DNA from: Sclerodactyla briareus
Taxonomy: Eukaryota > Echinodermata > Holothuroidea > Dendrochirotida > Sclerodactylidae
Length of the DNA stretch: 64,000 bases
Direction: 5' to 3'
NCBI GenBank assembly: GCA_026419785.1
Contig: JAODTK010005021.1
Location: 62,001-126,000, forward strand
A model generated the notes under the pieces. The model was not told where the DNA came from and did not search any database. It saw nothing but the letters and a program-made list of their open reading frames with translations. Position 1 is the stretch's first letter, and each line of letters starts with the position of its first letter. Shown in pieces: positions 3,551 through 31,730 of the stretch. Made by a program: the position numbers and the translations under genes.

Positions 3551-3720
3551 CTCAAAATGTTGTGTAACCTAGCACACCTTCCGGTTTTTGTCTGAAAATA
3601 CGCCATCATTGTGTATACTCTAACAAATTTGTTTTTTACACGGAGCTTCACATAATGTTGTTGGTAGCTTAAATTACACACACCGGATAGATGTGCGGTT
3701 TACACAGTGTTGTGTAATTC
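3551..3720. mobile_element. Palindromic MITE-like element, copy 1
   Basis: The ends are inverted relative to each other: AATGTTGTGTAACCTAGCACACC at the left answers GGATAGATGTGCGGTTTACA and GTGTTGTGTAA at the right. The reverse complement of the block aligns along its length with 14098-14268, including the internal ACACAATGAT string and the CACACCTATC-type arm. A ~170-bp non-coding palindrome present twice in opposite orientation is what a non-autonomous DNA transposon looks like. I could not fix a target-site duplication, so the superfamily is unknown. Confidence 0.65.
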
Positions 3721-3775
3721 CCCATAACCATTGTTATTCATTGACGAAGTTAGAGGATCTCTGCAGTAATTACAG

Positions 3776-5310: not shown

Positions 5311-6459
5311 GTGATGCAGCATTGTCCCTCAAGCACCGCAGTCTACCAGCTTACATCCCGAACTGTCTTCGTCTCTGAGACTCAGCCATCGCCTAACCCA
5401 CCATCGTCTCTGTTGTCTTAAGCTTTGCACTCTCCTGGCGCCCTTTTTCATATTACAAAAGGTAATGGGCATTCTGCATGTGGTATCTCAGCCTGAGTAT
5501 TGGCGGCCCTGTAATGAAACCTAATTCCTGTTCGTCTCTCAATCTCATCGTACGTTAGGGTCCGACTAGTAGTGGGTGAAGAATGCCATAACCGTGCCTT
5601 TTCATATGATCTCGACTGTGTACGTGTATTCAGGCGTTGTGTGCGTGTTCATACTGTGTTTTGGTCCGTTGGGTTATTCGGTATCACCGTATACAGCGGT
5701 TCAATGTGTCCGCATGTCCGAAACGAACATCGCCGAATCACCCAAACGGCGTCGTCATGCGTTTCGTCGACGCTATTCTTCGTTAATGTGTGGTGGGGCG
5801 AACTGAATATGGAAAACGATGTGTCATGAAAGAGTTGAACTTCTTCTATTGTAACAACCGGCCCTCTATGTCGCAAATAATACTCAATTCTACAACGGAC
5901 TGTTGCAGTGGGATGTTCGTGAGTTTCAGCGCAATCTTTCAGACTACCGCTAGCATCTTTTGCCCAGGTCTTGTCGAGAGTAAAATTTCAGCTACCCAGT
6001 ACTCGTTTTGGAACTTCATTCGACGAACTCTTAGGCATTTTCCTTTCTTGATTATTATTTCTCTTCTGACCTTCGCTATCATATTTGGATGAAACCGGCT
6101 GCATTTTCGTGCCACACAATAGGATATCTGTCCTCCCCATCAAAAAGCTATACATAGCAAAGGAGTTTCAGATTACGAACTCTTGACATCAGATGACCTA
6201 ATACCTAACCCTAGCCCTATCAGGTGTTACTGATATAACTTCATAGTTCCTTCACACAGGATTATGATGGGAATTAGACACATACATTAGCGATGCGTGA
6301 TTGTTTAACAAGTGTGTATATGATCATTAGTCAGGGCAGTCTTTCAGAATGGGGCTATGGTAGTTTAGGGTTTTTTTTAGAAGTACTGCCAGTTTTCCTC
6401 GGGCATTTCTACTATTGGATGGGGATTTTCTTAGGCGCATATACGTTACGGGTGTCGCA

Positions 6460-10060: not shown

Positions 10061-10589
10061 TTGGCCTGATTCGTTCTAGGGTTAGAAGAGTATATTCTTG
10101 GATAGTCAGTAACCCAGTTATATGGTTGAATAATGGGTACGTGAGTAAAAACAAAACTATATTAAATGGTTCGAATTATGTGAAATTTATGTTCACACAA
10201 CGTGGTTTTGTTTATTTTACAACCCTCAATTTCAATTTGTTCAAGTTCAATTTGGAGACTGTTAGTGAACACAAACCTGGAGTGGGTGTGCACCTAGAGC
10301 ATGTTTACACAACGAATTGCCCGTTGAGCATATGATACTTCCGAATACAGAAACGAACATTGTACAATCCATTTCCTTGCTAAATTGTGACGATGTGACC
10401 ATACCACGTTACTTTGATAAACTTCATCTACAAGAAATGGATATCATACTTAGCATGCGCGTAGTGAGCACATGGTCCAGTATTCGGCGTATGGCTTTCT
10501 CATTAGTAGTAAATGTGTATGTTCTACGTTTTTAATGCTCAAACCTGAATTTAAAAAAAAAAAATCTCTGATTGATTGTCATTTGACTT

Positions 10590-10921
10590 TCGGTTCCTTC
10601 CCATCATCTGCAATTACTCATCATGGTAGCTCAGATCATATATCGATATATCGCCCGGTTTTTCAGTCATTTACCTTTCTGGTTCCTTCCCATCATCTGC
10701 AATTACTCATCTTGGTAGCTCAGATCATATATCGATATATCGCCCGGTTTTTCAGTCATTCACCTTCCGGTTCCTTCCCATCATCTGCAATTACTCATCT
10801 TGGTAGCTCAGATCATATATCGATATATCGCCCGGTTTTTCAGTCATTTACCTTTCTGGTTCCTTCCCATCATCTGCAATTACTCATCTTGGTAGCTCAG
10901 ATCATATATCGATATATCGCC
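10590..10921 (+). repeat. ~89-bp tandem repeat, about 3.7 copies
   Basis: The marker CGCCCGGTTTTTCAGTCATT begins at 10651, 10741 and 10829, with the unit truncated at 10918, giving spacings of 90, 88 and 89 bp. Units are nearly identical. Each contains GGTTCCTTCCCATCATCTGC, TTGGTAGCTCAGATC and the palindrome ATATATCGATATAT. A 152-codon frame crosses the array only because the unit is close to a multiple of three; its translation is periodic and frame-shifted, so I do not call it a gene. Confidence 0.95.
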
Positions 10922-13575
10922 ACAGTTTAATCAGCGCCTGTTGACTGCAGCGCCACGAGTAGGCCAGTAAACCGTTTCTAATGAACGCTTTTTGCATCGT
11001 GCCTCAGGACGGGAAGTGAAAACAGGTCTGGTTAACCTAACCAATACTGTTTGTCCTAAAAAATAATCCTCGTCAAAAGTAGGACCTCGGAATTGTGCGT
11101 CATGCCTGCGTCACTGGAATATCAGTAACAGGATACAGTCTGCCCGTGAGCACATTGGCATTTAGGAACTGAGGTCACCACAGATCAAGACTGAAAGAAA
11201 AGAACGGAACGAATGGAATTGATCTGGTTAACAACTTGTAGATACATCCCTGGAACGAAAAACATCCAGGTATTCATTCCTAGTAGGCTTAATGTAAGGG
11301 ATAGTAGAGTAAAGTATCGCAGCTAGGGACCTGGAGGGATTTTACGGAATTGCATACTATGCTAAAATTGAGGGGTGGTATATTATGAGTGATACTACCA
11401 GATCTATTATAGTTTGAGGGACCAAACATGAGTTAGACGAACATTAACATCGAAAGCAGTTTCCTTGAAAGCCAACGGTCATGTAACAGATTCGCTCTAA
11501 ACTAGCACAGGTGAGAAGGGCATGTCAAACCCCCAGACCCCACATTCCGTGGTTCCGATTATGTTGCCCTGTTGAGAATTTCAATTCACTTTTGGGGAAT
11601 CTGGGATTATGACCCGAGGCTCCCACAGACCATACACAGTCAATGTGTATTTTTTCGCCTTGATAAAGGAAAAAAAACGAAGATATTCCACTCAGAAAAC
11701 AAACGGGTTATTCTTCCGTTAGTTTGTGAACAATTTCACATCAACTTTGTAATTTGGGGGATCCTACAGTTCCCTCGCGTGTCACAAGGCAAATTTTTGG
11801 CAGAGAAAGTTAATATACTGCTATTGCACATCTGTTTCTGTTGAGACTACTAACAAAAAGGACCCTACATAGCCTACTATACCACGGAAAAAGTTGTTGT
11901 TGTAATACGTATTAGGTACAATGAACATTATACGGGAGGTACTGCGAGCCTTTTTAATGAGCATAAACTCCTCACTATAATTGATCTATATTACTATCGA
12001 TGAGGTATACTTTAATGATATAGTTATTATAACTTTATTACGCGTTACAGATATCACTTAAGCAATTCTTTCTCCAGAACAGTCCGAAAAAGGAATACAC
12101 GGTGCACTGAGGTCCCGCTACGGAAGAGCTGAAAACAATACTAACATATAACTATTTTGTTATATTTCCTCCGTCTCGATATTAATGAGTTTGCCTTTTC
12201 TTCTTTCTTTGATCGTTATCATCCAAATCAAATCCTTTTTACCTTAAGTTTAACCATAGAGCCGACTAGAGAGGTTTATATTCATTCCTGGTCCATCTAC
12301 CCCATCTATGCTCTAAAGTTATTGTTATATGTATCATGTATATTTCCACCAATTTGTAAGATATTATGTAACATATGTAAGTCTGCGGATTGTCTGAGGT
12401 TTTTAAACGGGACAAACAGCAATACACAAGATGTCTTACGTTGTCTGAATTCAAATTCGTTTTAGCTCAAGTTCCAACATAGAGACATGTTCTAATTCAT
12501 TGTAATATGTTTATAATTATGTAAATTATTATTATATAAGAATAATAAAAGAGAATAAATGAGAATACTGACAGGCACACCTGATTTTAAACAAAAACTA
12601 GCACTTCTGTGTACTGAGTCTGTATGCAAAGCATATAATCACAGTCAGACAAGAACAAATTCTTCTTAGTATCTGGACATGCAAGTTACAAATATCAAGG
12701 GATGTTAACCCCATTGTGGGTGGAGGTAGTACAAGATAAATTCGGATCTTTTAAATACAAAATCTCTGCGCAATCTCTGGAGATTGCGAACATCTCGCAA
12801 GAAGGTTCCAAGTGCAAGTACCAACTGTCACCTTTCGAAAATTGATCTAGGGTGCAAGGACAAGTGGAAACAATATAACTGGGTAATCTATACGTGTGGG
12901 TGGATGCCACGAGAGATCATTTGTATATACACCTGTTGCGCAGGGTGTCTTTCTGGAATAAAAAACGCTTCGCGAGTTGAGATGATTGTGTTAGCCTAGA
13001 TTTGTGGCTCGCTTTTCTTCGCGGCAATGACTTAATAGTATATGTGCCAGCGTGTGGTAATAGTAAAATAACCCTACACTTACGTCTCCGGCTGTCGGGC
13101 CGTGAACCATGAAGAATGATCAGCACAACACCATTCCAATGCAACGACAGTGTGTATGACAGGTAAACAGTCCAATAAGTGATTAGGATAGAAAACAACC
13201 GAACGAAATAATTCAACTTATGCTGGAGGCCACCAGCTGCCGCCTTCCAGGATGACATCACGTTGCAAGGTGGGAGAATGAACTGACCAGAAATACATTT
13301 CGAAAACGTTCCTGAAAAGCGGCGTGTTTTCCGAGCAGGGAAAGTGCGTCTGTCAGTCCAACCTGATTGTATTAGCCTAGATTCGCAGCTCGCGTTTCTT
13401 GTATGAGATTGAGTCGGTCACTGCGGGTGACGACGTACGGCGAGTTAATCTACTTCGGGAATTTCCACTTAGCATATCGTGACGTAATGGGGTTGCCCAC
13501 ACACCTACTTCTTCGACACGTCATCGTGTGTATGTTCGTTCAATACACGGAAGAAGTAACGTAAGGGAGCAAGCA
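10922..13575. other. Intergenic stretch without a recognised gene
   Basis: I see no protein family here. Frames of 90 and 102 codons (11572-11844, 12157-12465, both plus) lack recognisable motifs. A ~45-bp direct repeat built on TTAGCCTAGATT and GCTCGC occurs at about 12990-13020 and 13370-13400. The part at 12480-12560 is AT-rich. Confidence 0.5.
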
Positions 13576-13790: not shown

Positions 13791-14097
13791 ATTTAATTAG
13801 ACATTCCTTGTACTGGTTGTGAGACGTGTGAGACGTGTCTAAATCAGTTTTCGAATTTGTTCCAATATGTCAAATGAATAGCTTGCCTCAGTTTCAGAAG
13901 TGCATTTGATCAGGAGGAAGCACGAGTCAACACCAGTATTGTGATGGACACCGAATGTTACTAGGAACTTCGGTATTATTATCAGTTACGGGACATTGAG
14001 CAATGTTTGATAGTAATGCCGGGCCAGTCCTGCAGAGTTTATTCTCGCTCTGAGAATCATCCTTGTTCGCAAAACTGTACTCCCAAAAATGTTGTTT

Positions 14098-14268
14098 GGA
14101 ATTTACACAACACTTTGTAACCAGCACACCTATCTCAGTGTTGTGTAAGGAACTCACACAACATTGTGTGGAGGTGATGTAAAAAAAAAATGGCATAATA
14201 GACACAATGATTGTGTATCTAACACAACACCGGGATAGGTGTGCCCGTCACACAACATCTTGAGGAGA
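14098..14268. mobile_element. Palindromic MITE-like element, copy 2
   Basis: Left arm TTTACACAACACTTTGTAA plus AGCACACCTATCTCAGTGTTG is mirrored on the right by CAACACCGGGATAGGTGTGC and CACACAACATCTTGAG. It aligns with the reverse complement of 3551-3720. No coding capacity. Confidence 0.7.
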
Positions 14269-14550
14269 GGGCGATTTTTTCACAACTATGCCAAATCTTC
14301 TGGATTCCTAGTTCATCTACAGTCTGAGCGAGCTCGTGCTAGGAGGGTCAGTGATCATACATTGCTGAGGAGTTCCTACGTGCAGAGTTTGATGATCAAC
14401 TTCATCAGAACTCGTAGTCTACGTACCTACGATTTCGTTTGTGATTTCGTAAGTGGATCTATCACGGCACGGGGGGCGTGACAGAAAATGAACCGGAATA
14501 TCTAAGCAGTTCAATTAAATGTAGGATAATTGCACGTAACCTACATTAGT

Positions 14551-15104
14551 CCATGAGCTCGGAGGACCCCGAGCACCCCACCCCAGACTCTCCGTGCGTG
14601 GTATCATTTTGACCGGGGGACCCGTCTGAACAATAGTTTGCATGTTACCATGAAAAATGTTGGGATGAACTTGCACAGCGGCCATTTTCCAAAATGGCCG
14701 CCGTTTGGGACTGTTTCCACCCCATATCACAAACATCGAAGGCTATAAAGCTGTGATTTTTGGTTTTTCAAAGGTTTTCTGGTCAAGAAATCTAGTATAA
14801 GAAAAGGGAGTACATTGTTCATTGGGCTTGCTGTGGCGACATTTGAAATTCAAAATGGCCGCCAAAGTGAGAAAAAATGGCAAATATGCGGAAAACCAAA
14901 AGAAAATATGCAATATCGGGTATTAATTCGTTTGATGTCTAGTTCCCATAAACCATTAAGATCATTCGCAATATGTGGTGCTGTACCACTTTGAAAGTCT
15001 AGAATGGCCACCAAAATAATGACCACCAAAAATGCGGCAGAGAACAAAAAAAATGACATAAATGCAGGAAATACATTCAAAATATGCACATTTGGGCAAC
15101 AATC
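14551..15104 (+). repeat. Left long terminal inverted repeat
   Basis: About 554 bp, imperfectly complementary to 19531-20107. It carries several copies of an AAAATGGCCGCC-like motif (around 14690-14700, 14852-14863, and degenerate near 15003), which reads as a subterminal array of possible transposase-binding sites. Short frames across it have no family. Confidence 0.85.
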
Positions 15105-18100
15105 AATTAGTTTTTCTACGGTGAATTGTTGCTAAACACTCAAGACAGGGTGGTAACATTGCTAAGTCCACGTTGCGACCAAGGCGCAATTCGGATGACG
15201 AGCGCTGCTCGTGATGAGGGTGAACCGGAGTTTATATCGCTTGTGAATCTGAGGACCAGAGAGTGCACAAGTGAATTATTCCAGGCAGCAAACAGTTCGT
15301 CTGTAAACTTGCCCATTCACGTCCAAGCTCTGTAAGGATGGTATGGAATTTTGTTAGCTTTTGCATCGTGTTGATTGGCTTCACTTTCCCTTTTCTCGGA
15401 AGGGCGCTTGGTCGTATCAACAATGGTAAATGCATCTTAACAACACAGATGGTGACCGTGAGGCTAACACAAAGTGGAAAAAATGATGAAAGAAGAATAT
15501 GTCTGGGGTGTGGGTGTGTACTCGTGCATACTCAGAGCTGTTCTGAGCAGATTTCAGTACATGATTTTTTTTTCGTGTATATGTTTCTTCCTGATGGATA
15601 AAACAGGCAGGAATTTTTCTGGTGTGGTGCCATCACTGCGAGCAGAATGCGGAGCCGTAGACACAGCTACAACCTTAACTTGAGTTGGAACAGTGACGAG
15701 AGTCGTCTGAGCTCCAAAACCATCAGGATCACCCGTATCAGTTGCTGCTTGTTTTCGTCGTCCGTAAGGAAGAATTACCAGTCAAATGGTCTCTTATTCT
15801 TGCCCCCAAGATGAGTTCTCTGAGCATCCTCGTGCTTGTCTTTCTAACGCCTTTTAATGGAGGTTCCATTGTACATGTCAGTGCTGAATCTCATGTTCGA
15901 ATGACTTTGGCATGGTGTCACGAACACTTGCAGCTGTTTCAATGGCGTCAACAGGTGGGGGACGGAGGGGGGGGGGGGCATGTCCTCACAATGCTCCCCC
16001 ATTGCTTTAACATTTTCACACAGTGAAATTTGAAAATGTGTGACGCTCATGGATGATCTCCTTGAAATTGCAGGATGTCACGCATGCAGTTAGAAACATG
16101 GCATATTGCCATTACAATGATAACAGTGGCATCAGGAAGGTGGAACTGGTGCTCATTTAACTATTTCTTGAATGTGATGGCATTCCTCGGCTTTGGGAGT
16201 TACTGCCAGGACCCATCGCAGTTCCTATGCTGTACGGTAAGGAGTGAGAGGTACTTCATGACATCCTCTAGTTCAATCATATTACTGTCTGGGACTTCAC
16301 AGGTAGTTGAAAAGCTACGCTTTTTGGATTTTGTAATCAAAACTTTATTGACATGTATTGATCAGAACAAACATTATGTGTGTTACGTAAAGTGAGCAAG
16401 TTCATTTTCTTCAGAGGTCAAGAAACCATCTACCTTCTCTAGCCGTTCACGAATGACATCTCCTTTGACTCGTACCCAGCATGATCAGCCTCCCATGACA
16501 TCATCCGTTATTTCAGGTGATGCAGAAGCACCGATAAAAAGGAATATAAATCCCTTGTCAGTTAAAATCGAACGGTTCATGTAGCTGTTATGGCATCCAT
16601 AGGTTTGTACTTCTTGTTCACTCTTGTTCACTTAGGCAGTTCGGAGATTCTGTGTTGTCGACTCTTTGCTCGGACAACATATATGACATAGAGATGGTAA
16701 TATAAACTGGTAACTGGTAAATCTCTTAGTTGTGGACCAATTCTGTAGTCCTGCACCACATCCAACAGCACCACCATGTGACTTGCAAGCTTCATAACGT
16801 CTCGTCAATCGTGTTAGAGATTGCCAGGAATCATAAATCGGAGCAACATTGAGTCACCTCCCTCAAGTAGCTCTATAAGGATGGTATGGAATTTTGTTAG
16901 CTTTTGCATCGTGTTGATTGGCTTCACTTCCCTTTTCCTCGGAGGCGCTGGTCGTATCACAATGTGTAAATGGCATCTTACACCAAGATGGTGACCGATG
17001 AAGGCTAACACACAGGGAAAAATTATGAAAGAGATATCACTGTGGGGTGTTACCGTGCATACTCATAGCCGTTCCTGAGAATAATTTCAGTACATTGATT
17101 TTTCGTTGTATTTTTTTTTTTTCGGTTCTTCCTGAGTGGAAACAGGACAGAATTTCTTCTTGGTGGTTGGTGCCATCCACTTCGAGCAAGAATGGCGGAG
17201 CCCTAGAACAGATAAACTTAAAGTGCTTGGAACAGTGAAGCGAAGTCGTCTGAGCTCCAAACACTCAGGATCACCCGTATCAGTTGCTGCTTGTTTTCGT
17301 CGTTCGTAAGGAAGACTTACCAGTCAAATGGTCTCTTATTCTTTTCCCCTCTATGATGAGCTTCTCGCTGCATCCTCTTCTTTGTCTTTCTAACGCCCTT
17401 TATTGAGGTTCCATTGTGTACATGTCCATTGCTGAATATCATGTCGACTGACTTTGGATGGTGTCACTCGAACACTTGCAGCTGATCTCATGGGCGTCAC
17501 CGTGGGGGACGGATGGGGGGGGCATGTCCTCCATGCTCCATGACTTTAACATTTTCACACAGTGAAATTTTGAAAATGTGGTGACGCTCATGGATGATCT
17601 CCTTGAAATTGCCAGGTATGTCCACGCATGCAGTAGAACATCGCATTGCCATCTACAATGATAACAGTGGCATCAGGAGGTGGAAAATGAGGATCATTAA
17701 CTATTTCGTGATGTGATGGCATTCCTCGGCTTGGGGAGTTACTGCCAGGTACCCATCAGCAGTCCTGTGCTGTACGGTACAGGAGTAGAGAATACTTCAT
17801 GACATCCTCTAGTTCAATCATATTACTTTCCTGGGACTTCACAGGTAGTTGAAAAGCTACGCTTCTTTGATTTTTGTATTCAACAACGTATCTTGACATG
17901 TCTTGATCCGAACAACATTATGTGTGTTACGTAAAGTGAGCAAGTTCATCTTCTTCAGAGGCTCGAAGAACCATCACCTCTTAGCCGTTCACGAATGAAC
18001 ATCGACTTTGACTCCGTACCAGCATGATCAGCTCCCATGACATCATCCGTTATTTCAGGTGATGCAGAAAACCGATAAAAGACTATACAACTTCTCCTTG

Positions 18101-19187
18101 TCAGTAAAATCGAACGGGGTTAATGTAGCGTTTATGGCATCATAGTTTTCTGTACTCTTTGTTCACTCTTGTCACTTCGGCAGTTCGGAGATCTCTGGGT
18201 TGTCGACTTCCTTTGGACTCGGGACAACAATCTGCCATAGAGATGGTAACTATAACTGTGGTAATTGGTAAACTCTCTTAGTTGTTGACCAATATGTTAG
18301 TCCTGCACCACATCCAACAGCACCAACATGTGACTTGACACGCTTCATCAACGTCTCTTCAATCGTGTTATCGATTGCCAGGAATCATAAATCGAGCCAA
18401 CATTGAAGGCACCTCCCTCAAGTAGCTATATAAGGATGGTATGATTTGTGGCTTTGCATCGTGTTGATTGGCTTCACTTTCCCTTTTCTCGGAAGGCGCT
18501 GGTCGTATCACAATGTGTAAATGCATCTTACAAACAAGATGGTGACTTTGTTGCACCTGGGTGTGTGGTTCCACATGGCTAGAAACACGGAGAAACATGT
18601 CAAATAGCGAGGATAATGTGGCCATCGAAACTGAAGAATAGGACCTGAACTCCTATAACAGACACTCAGTGTAAAAAATAAAGTTGTTCGTCTTCACAGC
18701 CTGGATTAGCTCCAGAACTAACCAGATGTGGTCCATGTATGACAACCACAACTATGCCGTCTTCCATAGCTTTCCACCTCTCACCTCTCCTTGAACTTTG
18801 CGATCCATCATGAGAGTTGTATTCCATCATCTTCTATGCCCGCAGTTCATCGTCGACTGGGATGGTGTCTCCAGAATGCCCTGCATCAACGACTTTGACT
18901 CTTCACGCAGGATGTCTGTCAAATTGGGTTTCACTTCATTAGCCCCATATATGCAGTGTCAGGTAACCGCTCGAGGACCTCTAGCACTGTCTCACATACC
19001 ATAGCTCTTCTGTACTGCTTACCAGCCAACACCCACGTGGAGATCCAGATGATATCAACCCTGCCTCAATCATTATATCAGCTAACCCAGTGCCGTTCAT
19101 CTTCTTAGAAGCATTTTCAGGTACGCACATACGACATGAAAAGCTTCCAATCATTAGGATGTGCTTCTCACAGCGAACATGCCACAA
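15103..19187 (-). pseudogene. Broken gene of a large FEN-nuclease-like transposon family
   Basis: Reading the minus strand N to C across frames: 19187-18981 has GTGLADIMIEAGLISSGS and a Tyr-rich continuation; 18960-18850 has PNLTDILREESKSLMQGI; 18785-18665 has a YMDHIWLVLELIQAVKTNN segment; 18650-18540 has FFSFDGH and a Thr-His-Pro-Gly end; 18530-18483 has DAFTHCDTTSAFREKG. Two ~1.55-kb units then repeat the middle of the protein: FMIPGN, IIVDGNA, DMYNGTSIK with ERQARGC, DENKQQLIRV, and HTPDIFF. The last part has KVKPINTMQKLTKFHTIL, LPPCLECL and a stop at 15103-15105. This order matches a family of very large uncharacterised invertebrate proteins whose GCDTTSA.KGIGK region resembles the DNA-binding turn of FEN/XPG nucleases. 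Frames break repeatedly, so no product is expected. Family membership is firm from motifs; the nuclease role is inference. Confidence 0.8.
15330..18540. repeat. Internal ~1.55-kb tandem duplication, two copies plus a partial third
   Basis: The marker GGATGGTATGGAATTTTGTT (shorter in the third copy) occurs at about 15337, 16877 and 18432, a spacing of about 1,540-1,555 bp. Unit 1 and unit 2 align end to end with scattered one-base indels. The third unit stops after about 115 bp, where it joins the FFSFDGH part of the gene. In protein order each unit starts with the CDTTSAF...KFHTIL piece and jumps back to FMIPGN, so the junction lies inside the reading frame. This could be a real rearrangement or a read/assembly artefact. 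Confidence 0.9.
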
Positions 19188-19529
19188 TGCACGCCTGTAA
19201 GCCTAGGCCTATGAGATGCACACACACTCAATGAGAATCATTGTTAGGCTAGGTTAGGCTATAGCCTAGTCTTTGTCGTTCCCAAAATCTTCAGAAAAAT
19301 TAACCTCTTAGAAGAATAAAACTTGCAGAGGAATAAACACAGACACATTGATGCTGCCCAATTGGGCATATTTTGTATGTATTTAACTGCATATTATGTC
19401 ATTTTATCTGTTCCGGCGGCCATTTTGGTGGTAATTTTCCGGCAAGCCATCTTGAATTTTCGGAAATGTTGTAACAGTTCCCAAAATTGTTAGGAGTAAC
19501 TTCTAATAATAACTAGGAATGAAGAACAC

Positions 19530-20107
19530 ATGATTGTTGCCCAATTGTGATATTTGATGTATTGGCCTGCATATCGATGTTCATTCTATTTGTCTTCCCG
19601 CATATTGGTAGCCATTTGGCGGGCCGATTTTGGATTTTCAAAGTGTTTATAGCACCATATATTGCAAATGAGTCTTAGGGGTATGGAACCCATGCAATCA
19701 ACTAATTCATACCCATTTGGCATATTTCTTTGGATTTCTGCATATCTTTCTTGCGATTTCTCACTTTGGGCGGCCCAAAAATTTTTTCGGCGGCCATTTC
19801 GAATTTCAAATGGCCGCCACAGCACAGCACAATGAACCAATAGTAATGCCCTTGTTCTCACTAGATTCATTGACCCAGAAAACCTATAAGAGACCGAAAT
19901 TTCAGCTTTACAGCCTTCGATGTTGTGATTGGCGTGAAAACAGTCCAAAACAGCGGGCACCACATGTGGAAAAATGGCGGCTGTGCAGAGTTACCCCAAA
20001 ATTTTAGATGTAACATGCCAAATATTGTCGGAGGGTCCCCAGGACCAAAATGATACCAACTCACGGAGAGTATGGGGTGGGGGTGCACGGGGGGTCATCT
20101 AGTCATG
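19530..20107 (-). repeat. Right long terminal inverted repeat
   Basis: Complementary to 14551-15104, with GGCGGCCATTTCGAATTTCAAA, AAATGGCGGCTGTGCAGAG and GGTCCCCAGGACCAAAATGA as anchors. The inner edge is repeated once more: the block at 19330-19450 (TGCCCAATTGGGCATATTT ... GGCGGCCATTTTGGTGG) is a direct, diverged copy of 19520-19640, so this arm carries an extra subterminal repeat. Confidence 0.85.
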
Positions 20108-20109
20108 GA

Positions 20110-21600
20110 TACATACTTCTTCTTTGGTTTACGTTAATGTCAATTATTGTAGGTGCCATGAATCAGGTTTGTATGATCGTTGTGGTTCACTTTAAGTGTA
20201 GAATCCTAGTGAAAATTCACTCAGCTGTTTATTTATGTCCCGATTTATACAGAGGGGAATCTAAATCTCAGAAAGACCAATTTCACGTCAAAAAAAAAAC
20301 ATGCCAGCAAGGCATTAATGAAGATCGTATACTGTGCTGCTATTCTACCTCGTAACCCGGTAATAAACGTATCGTATAGAATCTATTGAAGTGGATTTTC
20401 ATCAACTTTCCTTTCCAGAGTCTCATGAATGTTTTGCTCAATATCGAGTTGCAAAGAGTGCATTTTGTTTGTGGCTCGGTATACGGCTCGGCTGCCTTAT
20501 CCTTACCCTCGAAGTCACATAAAAAGGACTATTCAAATAAAAGTGCTAGTATTTATTTTCTGATTTTCGTCTATAGCGGAGTTCTTTATTTGGTGGTTCT
20601 TTCCATCATTACTGTTCATGAGACTTCTTCTGGATAGCCATCTAGGTTGATTTTCAAATGTTCCATTTCCATCTCTGCTTAGTTCAACTATGCTTCCTCT
20701 GTCTTTCCTCTTGTTTCGAAGATTCCTATACTCATCAGAGTCTGCTACGCACACCGGTTGTAAAGTTACGGTACGCCTAGTTGATAATGCTAAAAGATTG
20801 ATGTCTTCTGTCGGAATTTAACTATCCACTGAGAGGAAAGACTTGGGGCGCGTCACTGACAGCGTGTTTAAAATAGATAGGTATCATGTGACAGTTTGAT
20901 TGATGTTAGTTTGGAGGGCAACACACTTTAAATTTCCATATAGGCTATTGATTGGTGTCTGTTTTTTGTTTGATACTAATCCGCGGTATAAACCGTGACC
21001 CTTATTAGCATTTCGAAAAGAGCTCCTGAAAAATAAAACATTAGACGAAACATTTTCATAACACTTCAACAACGTTTTGTGTGCCCTGGTTATTCCTATA
21101 GGCGTAATCTACGCTTGTCGCTCAGCACAAGTCTGAAAAAGTAGGTCTGAATATTACTCTTCTACGCTGTTATTCTGGTCGGACATCGTTACGAGGAGCA
21201 ACATAAACCATTTCCCAGTAGCTTTCCCAGTTGTTCCAGCCCCGCAACTCGTTTCGTTATCATACATTGCTGACAAAACAAACCAAAATGAAGGGGAACG
21301 ATTTTCATGTTCGATGTAGACTATAACATGACGCGTACATTCAAGCGCATTGGGCTATATGGTGGCACTTTCATTCACCATCACTACAAACCCTCAATTC
21401 TAATTCCACCACACCCGTTATTCATCAGAGGACAATATAACCTGATACTATTCCCCCATAATACCGTGTGTAATATTCATTCGATCTGTCAGTATAAACA
21501 CAGCGTGCCTGTTTTTGTTTTTTTTTTACCTCACATACGTCATCCTGGCTTCCTAGCAAGGACTTTTGTTTTTTCCATGTCGGTGATATTTCTGCCGATC
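20110..21600. other. Intergenic stretch without a recognised gene
   Basis: Frames up to 118 codons (21307-21663 plus, ending inside the duplication) have no motif I recognise. No clear repeat structure apart from homopolymer runs. Confidence 0.5.
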
Positions 21601-29129: not shown

Positions 29130-31730
29130 GATAAGTTCAGAGAAGTGTAAGTGTTGTGCCTGCAGTCTGTGTCGGAGGTAGTGGTGGGTAGTTTCTCAGG
29201 TTTGATGCACCCAAGAGACGGCCCGCTTGCTGAATATGTCGAATCCCAAGTCTCCTAAGGCTTTTGAAGCTTCCCCGAATATTGAGCGTGAAGAGGTCAC
29301 AGGGACCGGCTTTGACGAAATCGTCTTTCTCTGCTCGGGTGTCAAGAAACACTTTCAGGTCTCTCTTACTGTATGTATTGCACAACTTAGCCAGCACATT
29401 TGATTTGTAAATCCACAGATCGCAGAAACTGTGTCACAGCCGGAAAAGCTGTGCAAGAAGATAAGATATTTCCGGTATTTTTTGGTGGGAAGGGTATTTT
29501 TTCATCGTACTTGCCGACATCATACGATGTTTCCTCCTGGCGGGTTGAGGAGAATCGGGTTGAGCTTACGACATGATGAATCAGCGAAACCATGATGTCA
29601 GTGTCCTCAGCCCTCACCTCAACAGAGGACTCCCTTGCCTCATCCGAGAGCTACTCGAACGGGAGATGGATAAGAAGTGTCCCGCATCATCGAGCATTTC
29701 TGTGTACACTGATTCCCATTTCTTTTTTTATGTAATTGATTGTACTCAGCAAAGCAGCCGAATGAGCTGAGTTGTTTGCGATGTCCAGGAGTTCTCTCTT
29801 GGACCCAGGCTTTTGATGTCCGTGGAATAGGATGTCGCAGCAGCATTTCCCGTTCGTCTAAGTGATCGTGGTTTTGGAGAGCTGCGTATCTGTCGAAGAC
29901 TACAGTATCCGTTGCCTGACTCCCCATAGACTTGCACAAACTATAGGTTGCTCTCGGCGATGTCTCTCCATGTTAGATTCACCTCCCATTTGACGTTGTG
30001 TAAGAGCCACCCCCATCAATCACCAAGCTTGTACAGGAGTGTTACTCGACGGGCTCCACATATGCTGTCAGGACCGTCCCTAGGGCCAGCGAAGCTTGTC
30101 AGGTTTTCTGGTATCTTTGCCGAAAAGAAACATGTTATGGCGTCAGTTCATATCGCAGGCTCTTTGTCTTGTCCCCACGCTCACTGATGATGATGAAGCG
30201 GTTGAGTCAATGACCAACTTCGTCCCGTTGATTTTCGGTCCACTCATCTGAGGCAGGCTTGCAAGGTTTGACCCTTGTGTTTTGGTTACATTTGAATCTA
30301 ACAACACAGTGGTCCCATCCATCTTGGCCTAGTATTCCTCTGCCGACTCTCTGCTGCTCAGCGGTTGAACGGGTCCTCGAAAGTGTACTAAACCAGTGAA
30401 GAAGGATAATGAATCTACGAGTCCCGTGCGGCATCAGAGGGGTTCACCTGCTGCAACCATCCTACGATATTGTGACGGCCATCATTGTCCTTCTCATCCG
30501 CATTCTTGTGACATCACTATGGACAGGTAGATTCATAACTATTCCCAGCTTGGTGAATATAGGGAAATGGTGAGCGTAGGAAACCTAAGACCGGTGCCGA
30601 TTCATTTCGGAAGCGTCCTCTGTTCAAACCACCTAAGACTTGGCACACGCATGGTGTGGTTCTATTGTGGTGTCAGTTAAAGTCGGTTAAAGTCTCGGCT
30701 GCATGATTGTAGGTACAGCCTGGATCCCTTAGCGTCCTGGTTGATGGTTTCCGCTGCTGCGAAGGTGTGCGCAATGCTGCAGCTGAGGTGACTGCGTGGT
30801 CTGCGATACGCTCACAACATGATGAAGACGTTAATAAGATCGTTCTGCGTGATGCCGGACCCAGAAATGCAGGTGTTTTCCCCCTTCACCAAGGTCTCAA
30901 GCTTGCTCCATCATTCTTGAACACAGTGAATATCTTGCTTTGCACCATTGCGTTGTACCCCGTCGGGATCAAAGTTCGAAAATGATGGTGAAAATCACGG
31001 AAAAAATATAATTTAGCAGATCTAGGGGATTTATAGGCTCACCTTTCGGTCTTGATGTAATTCCATGTCCTAACACCTGTCTGCTGAACACAACATCTAT
31101 CATCACGGCGTGGTAATTCCGCAGCTTGCAAAGTAGGTGGAAACGGATAGATTTCGAACAGGTACGCTGAGAGGATGTGTTTGCTCTGCTGCTGCCTGGG
31201 TAAATCAGCTGTATCATCTCTTGCCGCCCAGAATCTGCCAGTCTCCGTTGGACCCAGGACGCTTCCGGTTAGGTGGAACCAGCCCAATCTGTGATGAGTG
31301 CAGCTTGAGGACTAGAGGACAATTCTGAGTGCTTTAAACCATATAGGCAAGTCAAACGTGACCACAGCAGGAGACTGACTGTTACGGATGCACTCATCAG
31401 CGTGGTTGACGTAGTTACTGTAGTCGTCTGGTCCCCATGATGATCGGGACAAAATCCTTATGGGACCTTTACTCGCATTCAGGTTCGGTGTGTATTGATT
31501 TCAGAAAAAACCATTCCATTGTGTTGTTCGGACGTGGGTTTGTGGTGTTCGATAACCCATCCTGCCGCCCAACCCCCGATGTCCCCTGGAGCAATACTGC
31601 TTAGCGTGACGCGGAGGATCTGCTATGGGAAAAAGTTTACCGCTGAAATCCCGATTTCCGACCCCCTCAATGACCCGTATATGTCGGGTGATTTCATAGA
31701 AGACTCCGGTCAAGTAGGTCACTCCTAGGA
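29130..31730 (-). pseudogene. Broken gene related to the 15103-19187 transposon family
   Basis: Read on the minus strand across frames, the N-side (31330-31140) shows LGWFHLTGSVLG, comparable to the family's LGGFH...LG segment, and 30700-30580 has a GGLNRGR stretch. The nuclease-like half is clearer: TVVFDRYAA at about 29915-29885 (family VVFDGY), RELLDIANNS at about 29795-29770, AEDTDIMVSLIHHV at 29612-29570 (family DDTDVLVLLIHH, acidic pair intact), HSFSGCDTVSAICG at 29456-29415, LAKLCNTYSKRDLKVFLDTR from 29394, and a degraded LPPTS near 29185. These correspond in order to the DxD and GCDT.SA boxes in the other pseudogene. The closest relatives I know are large uncharacterised invertebrate proteins. 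Frame breaks throughout; no product expected. The N-terminal limit is uncertain. Confidence 0.7.

Follow-up and report, generated by a model that had tools for sequence, protein, structure and literature searches.

The nuclease of AcademX, a lineage of the Academ superfamily of DNA transposons, is of XPG type, and the target duplication of hAT transposons is 8 bp; to our knowledge, no FEN-like domain occurs in the P-element or Hermes transposases. In the published descriptions, AcademX is assigned duplications of 3 or 4 bp and AcademH of 9 or 10 bp, which is linked to whether a nuclease or a helicase is encoded (PMC10045372), and the values listed for Academ and for the P superfamily are 3 bp and 7-8 bp, respectively (PMC5199201). 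Academ elements have expanded in bivalves, where their mean length is 5,565 bp (PMC10294476).

The element considered here, from the holothurian Sclerodactyla briareus, occupies positions 14547-20111 of a 64,000-nucleotide stretch of contig JAODTK010005021.1; this whole stretch is referred to as the window. The element is very probably a cut-and-paste DNA transposon that has become defective; its most likely place is the nuclease-bearing AcademX lineage of the Academ superfamily, and it is matched by the published descriptions: relatives encode a DDD/E core together with a nuclease, and the family has terminal inverted repeats and a 3-bp duplication. An earlier reading of the nucleotide sequence alone had proposed a FEN-like nuclease gene inside a transposon with long inverted arms. 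Its observation is confirmed, and its interpretation is supported in part.

Inverted arms and target site duplication

The gene lies between two inverted arms, whose local alignment scores 495, whereas none of 50 shuffles exceeded 39. By blastn, 14550-15116 aligns with 20109-19521 over 616 columns at 75.6% identity, which becomes 87% when only substitutions are counted. The termini were fixed by comparison of 31 arm ends and read TAG at 14547 and, with one G missing, TA at 20111. The left arm measures about 0.57 kb and the right about 0.76 kb, the latter including an additional inner unit of about 174 bp which brings its total span to 19347-20111; 14981-15107 also matches 19477-19347. Sites of the ATGGCSRCC type are found on both strands, with 6 of the 10 in the window falling in the arms. 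They resemble YY1 sites and may be promoter elements.

Target duplications, a check that the sequence-only reading had suggested, were sought in the flanks of 23 loci (the window, L009-L028, L059 and L060), 11 of which have two credible outer termini. The other 12, which lack such a pair, were dropped (L011, L012, L014, L017, L019, L020, L022, L023, L025, L026, L028 and L060); L026 also has inner matches that were regarded as spurious, and in L021 a further plus-strand match at 5331 was disregarded. Identical 3-bp flanks are present in 6/11 pairs, CAT at the window element and CAA, AAA, CGT, GAT and AAA at the others, with no 3-bp identity at L015, L018, L021, L027 and L059. Shuffling the right flanks among pairs reached six matches in 5 of 200,000 trials, and none of the 11 pairs is identical at 4 to 9 bp. 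C1105, added later by eye, has TTT on both sides and raises the count to 7/12; its flanks lie inside a T-run, and the identity also holds at 4 bp.

Transposase and nuclease domains of the relatives

A read-through of the window gene retrieved 14 relatives, the profile of which retrieved 236 at E up to 1e-5. The 120 matches listed, most of them unnamed, hypothetical or uncharacterized proteins, come from organisms that include Solemya, Haliotis, Littorina, Palaemon and Myxine. A full-length class of 1,520-1,630 residues comprises 36 of the 123 proteins collected, many of them on contigs of about 5-7 kb. These proteins combine a DDE transposase domain and a C-terminal nuclease in one polypeptide of about 1,570 residues, encoded in one open frame. 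The sequence-only reading had cast the nuclease as the mobilising part, a view which the transposase domain in the same polypeptide does not support. D487/D490, D658 and E912 of the DDD/E core are kept in 30/30 aligned full-length relatives, and the N-terminal C79, H93, C96, C138, C141, H200 and C203 are invariant in the same alignment. The transposase domain is predicted to fold as an RNase H core into which a helical segment is inserted, after the second Asp and before the Glu; its nearest solved folds are the P-element and Hermes transposases.

The link to FEN/XPG nucleases is supported. The C-terminal half of the relatives has a predicted FEN/XPG fold of the Exo1/FEN1-like kind, with acidic residues at the expected positions. 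Seven of them occur in order, invariant in the 30 full-length relatives and with few exceptions in the wider set, and by numbering they would be the equivalents of FEN1 D34, D86, E158, E160, D179, D181 and D233. Identity to Exo1, FEN1, XPG and GEN1 structures is 6-15% across the aligned parts. A sequence-profile search of the PDB returned Exo1 sequences only, at E values of 1.3-2.1 which are insufficient by themselves; a fold's absence from the VIA-align lists was not counted as evidence against it. The modelled fold and the ordered acidic ligands point to membership of the FEN/XPG/Rad2 superfamily, with a putative structure-specific 5' nuclease activity.

The kinship of the folds would also suit a DDE superfamily of its own, so far undescribed, that combines a P/hAT-like transposase and an Exo1-class nuclease in one fusion and resembles AcademX by coincidence. 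Besides the P-element and Hermes folds, the Pfam searches speak for it: no model rose above the cut-off in 13 proteins scanned singly, and over 30 full-length members DUF6589 alone was listed, in 8/30 and under the cut-off (best E 3.4e-5). However, the 3-bp duplication, the nuclease in the same protein, the arms and the size all fit the published AcademX and Academ descriptions. Neither the 7-8 bp duplications of P (PMC5199201) nor the longer ones of hAT have a counterpart here, with 0/11 pairs identical over 7 or 8 bp. A separate superfamily is very unlikely. It is similarly improbable that molluscs, a crustacean and a hagfish share a superfamily of their own in which the Exo1-class nuclease processes the intermediates of its P/hAT-like DDE domain and thereby sets the 3-bp duplication.

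The fold and the duplication suggest that the DDE domain would cut at the TAG arm ends and join them to target cuts staggered by 3 bp. Excision or strand transfer may leave 5' flaps for the C-terminal nuclease to trim, or hairpins for it to open, and the N-terminal Cys/His positions could bind zinc and DNA. The family ties a large set of mostly unnamed or hypothetical proteins to DNA transposons, and these relatives should no longer be taken for nucleases of the host. The presence of full sets of both DDE and FEN residues in a single open frame also offers a route to asking why a cut-and-paste transposase needs a flap nuclease and, as a related question, whether the nuclease sets the length of the 3-bp duplication.

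Other searches returned no further homology: NCBIfam had no match for 5/5 proteins, and none of the pattern-matching stretches in viral contigs (34) or in bacterial and archaeal genome contigs (98) codes for a relative, in searches that may omit records of the window's own genome. Two relatives, P0092 and P0120, are filed under Candidatus Thiodiazotropha metagenome bins and are perhaps animal host DNA within symbiont assemblies. In P0097 (Solemya velum, 1764 residues) a relative and a Pfam PF00567 domain share a single predicted protein, through either the fusion of two genes or an erroneous gene model.

The window copy and its kin in the host genome

The coding region of the window element is on the minus strand, where all the motifs named by the sequence-only reading were located: VDGNA at 17642-17656, DENKQQ at 17284-17301 and 15742-15759, HTPDIF at 15495-15512, and CDTTS at 16947-16961 and 18498-18512. 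That reading had called the architecture complete. Measured against the full-length relative P0015 (1,568 residues), however, the gene covers residues ~669-1490 and is without about residues 1-668, two DDE residues and the C-terminus. It is also internally duplicated over 15326-18546, with a tandem unit of ~1,541-1,554 bp. The order along P0015, as interpreted from fragmentary alignments, is 669-~880, a piece of ~1380-1420, and then ~890-~1420 twice, the last pass reaching ~1490. The copy retains its arms, the glutamate region and the nuclease part. In alignment to full-length relatives it has no match to the stretch holding both catalytic aspartates, and it would therefore move, if at all, only in trans, by protein from another copy acting on its arms.

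Features of the window element, in window coordinates
Feature	Position	Strand	Basis
Left copy of 3-bp target site duplication, CAT	14544..14546		flank sequence
Left terminal inverted repeat	14547..15116	+	arm alignment, arm-end comparison
In-frame TGA closing the truncated coding region, in inner end of left arm	15103..15105	-	
C-terminal part of nuclease region, to about residue 1490/1568 of P0015; last ~78 residues missing	15106..15325	-	
Tandem unit copy 1: part of transposase domain and nuclease domain	15326..16868	-	
Tandem unit copy 2	16869..18423	-	
Partial third unit (CDTTSAF stretch), junction to 5' gene part	18424..18546	-	
Surviving 5' gene part, from about residue 669 of P0015, downstream of second DDE aspartate D658	18590..19187	-	
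Extra inner unit of right arm, ~174 bp; kind that makes the 177-bp array in L023	19347..19520	-	
Right terminal inverted repeat	19521..20111	-	arm alignment, arm-end comparison
Right copy of 3-bp target site duplication, CAT	20112..20114		flank sequence

The tandem copies 1 and 2 are 94% identical by substitutions, of which there are 86; single-base gaps make up 97 of the 117 gaps between them, and the reading frames are interrupted by many one-base gaps. The many one-base gaps between the tandem units indicate unpolished long reads. As one-base indels dominate, dating the copy from arm divergence and reading its broken frames as evolutionary decay were both rejected. The same excess of gaps over substitutions would be expected if the inverted arms and tandem units were artefacts of mis-joined noisy long reads. 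Other contigs, however, carry the same arms with their termini conserved and with 3-bp duplications, which makes an artefact very unlikely overall and plausible only for the internal tandem duplication. Simple read errors would not account for stretches as long as the missing N-terminus and the duplicated unit, although the 1.54-kb unit could be a mis-assembly.

The host assembly comprises 319.5 Mb in 3,171 contigs, in which the left arm has at least 89 matching pieces, several per locus, and the relative P0001 (850 residues), used as a protein query, has 31 matching stretches. Five loci (the window, C2018, C2144, C1369 and C2786) form one DNA family, their gene parts aligning in gapped pieces at 67-91% identity. 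Arms, whole or partial, are present in 5/5. Both arm ends are found in the window, C2018 and C2144; in C1369 the left arm is full and the right one partial, and C2786, whose gene reaches the contig end, has a single partial weak arm (E 9e-9). The sequence-only reading had stressed a stop codon touching the left arm. The TGA at 15105-15103 is indeed in frame with the family alignment, which ends at 15106, and lies within the arm's inner end; this is a peculiarity of the damaged window copy, because in C2018 and C2144 the coding match, which extends to P0001 residues 838 and 841, respectively, stops about 370-380 bases short of the nearest arm match.

That reading had also named gene copies without arms, arms around unrelated genes and the lack of a structural match to FEN/XPG folds as observations that would count against it. 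The structural match was obtained, and the loci were compared for arms and for the gene. Six of seven loci of distant relatives were checked for arms, with C3097 left out. Those six (C1293, C2791, C3001, C2833, C850 and C2194) have no arms within 1.5-3 kb of flank, bar a 30-base match at C850 (E 0.006), yet they have no DNA similarity to the window family. Conversely, 18 of the 20 arm-bearing loci L009-L028 have no P0001 match in the stretch examined, as expected for non-autonomous copies, and the eight gene-less pairs with two credible termini are 1.0-2.9 kb long. Such gene-less arms would also suit a host gene for a FEN-like nuclease that was taken up by an unrelated non-autonomous element or that happens to sit within its arms. 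The arms in all five copies of the gene's DNA family and the transposase domain within the relatives' own polypeptide make such an origin highly improbable. These arms, together with the 3-bp duplication, tie the gene to a long-armed transposon.

Several repeats accompany these elements. At L023:1919-4039 a 177-bp unit derived from inner-arm sequence is arrayed in 11.8 copies. Arms of the transposon thus give rise to satellite-like DNA, and inner-arm pieces that recur at similar intervals in several further loci suggest the same there. Two minus-strand arm ends, L017:3643 and L017:5412, have nearly identical outer flanks, which suggests a local duplication or an assembly duplicate. A second family of the element's protein type has left a remnant in the window at 29432-29677 on the minus strand, with GCDTVSAI and EDTDIMV; the DNA of this remnant matches locus C2833 at 81.5% identity over 417 columns and has no similarity to the element at 14.5-20.1 kb. 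A short palindromic repeat lies beside the left arm at 14085-14264 and again at 3551-3735, in inverted orientation, and is perhaps a small non-autonomous element. Pieces of an ~88-bp tandem repeat at 10578-10934 are 91-95% identical.

Comparison with known systems

The nuclease domain shares with Exo1, FEN1, XPG and GEN1 its fold and the order of the seven acidic positions; it differs from them in its 6-15% identity and in following a transposase. The P-element and Hermes (hAT) transposases have the RNase H core and its helical insertion in common with the family, but their target duplications are longer than the 3 bp of the window family. AcademH belongs to the same superfamily by its description in PMC10045372, and is set apart by a helicase and duplications of 9-10 bp; among the families listed here for 30 proteins at E values up to 0.01 there is no helicase, and no 9-bp match occurs in the 11 pairs.

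The closest system by description is AcademX. The XPG module of Academ, to which the sequence-only reading had pointed, was the right lead; PMC10045372 says "nuclease". The window copy departs from AcademX in its truncation at both ends, its internal duplication and its unequal arms, the right one carrying the extra ~174-bp unit. Common to the family and to AcademX, as described in PMC10045372, are a DDE-type transposase with a nuclease and duplications of 3-4 bp. Terminal inverted repeats and a length of several kb also agree, the mean for bivalve Academ elements being 5,565 bp (PMC10294476).
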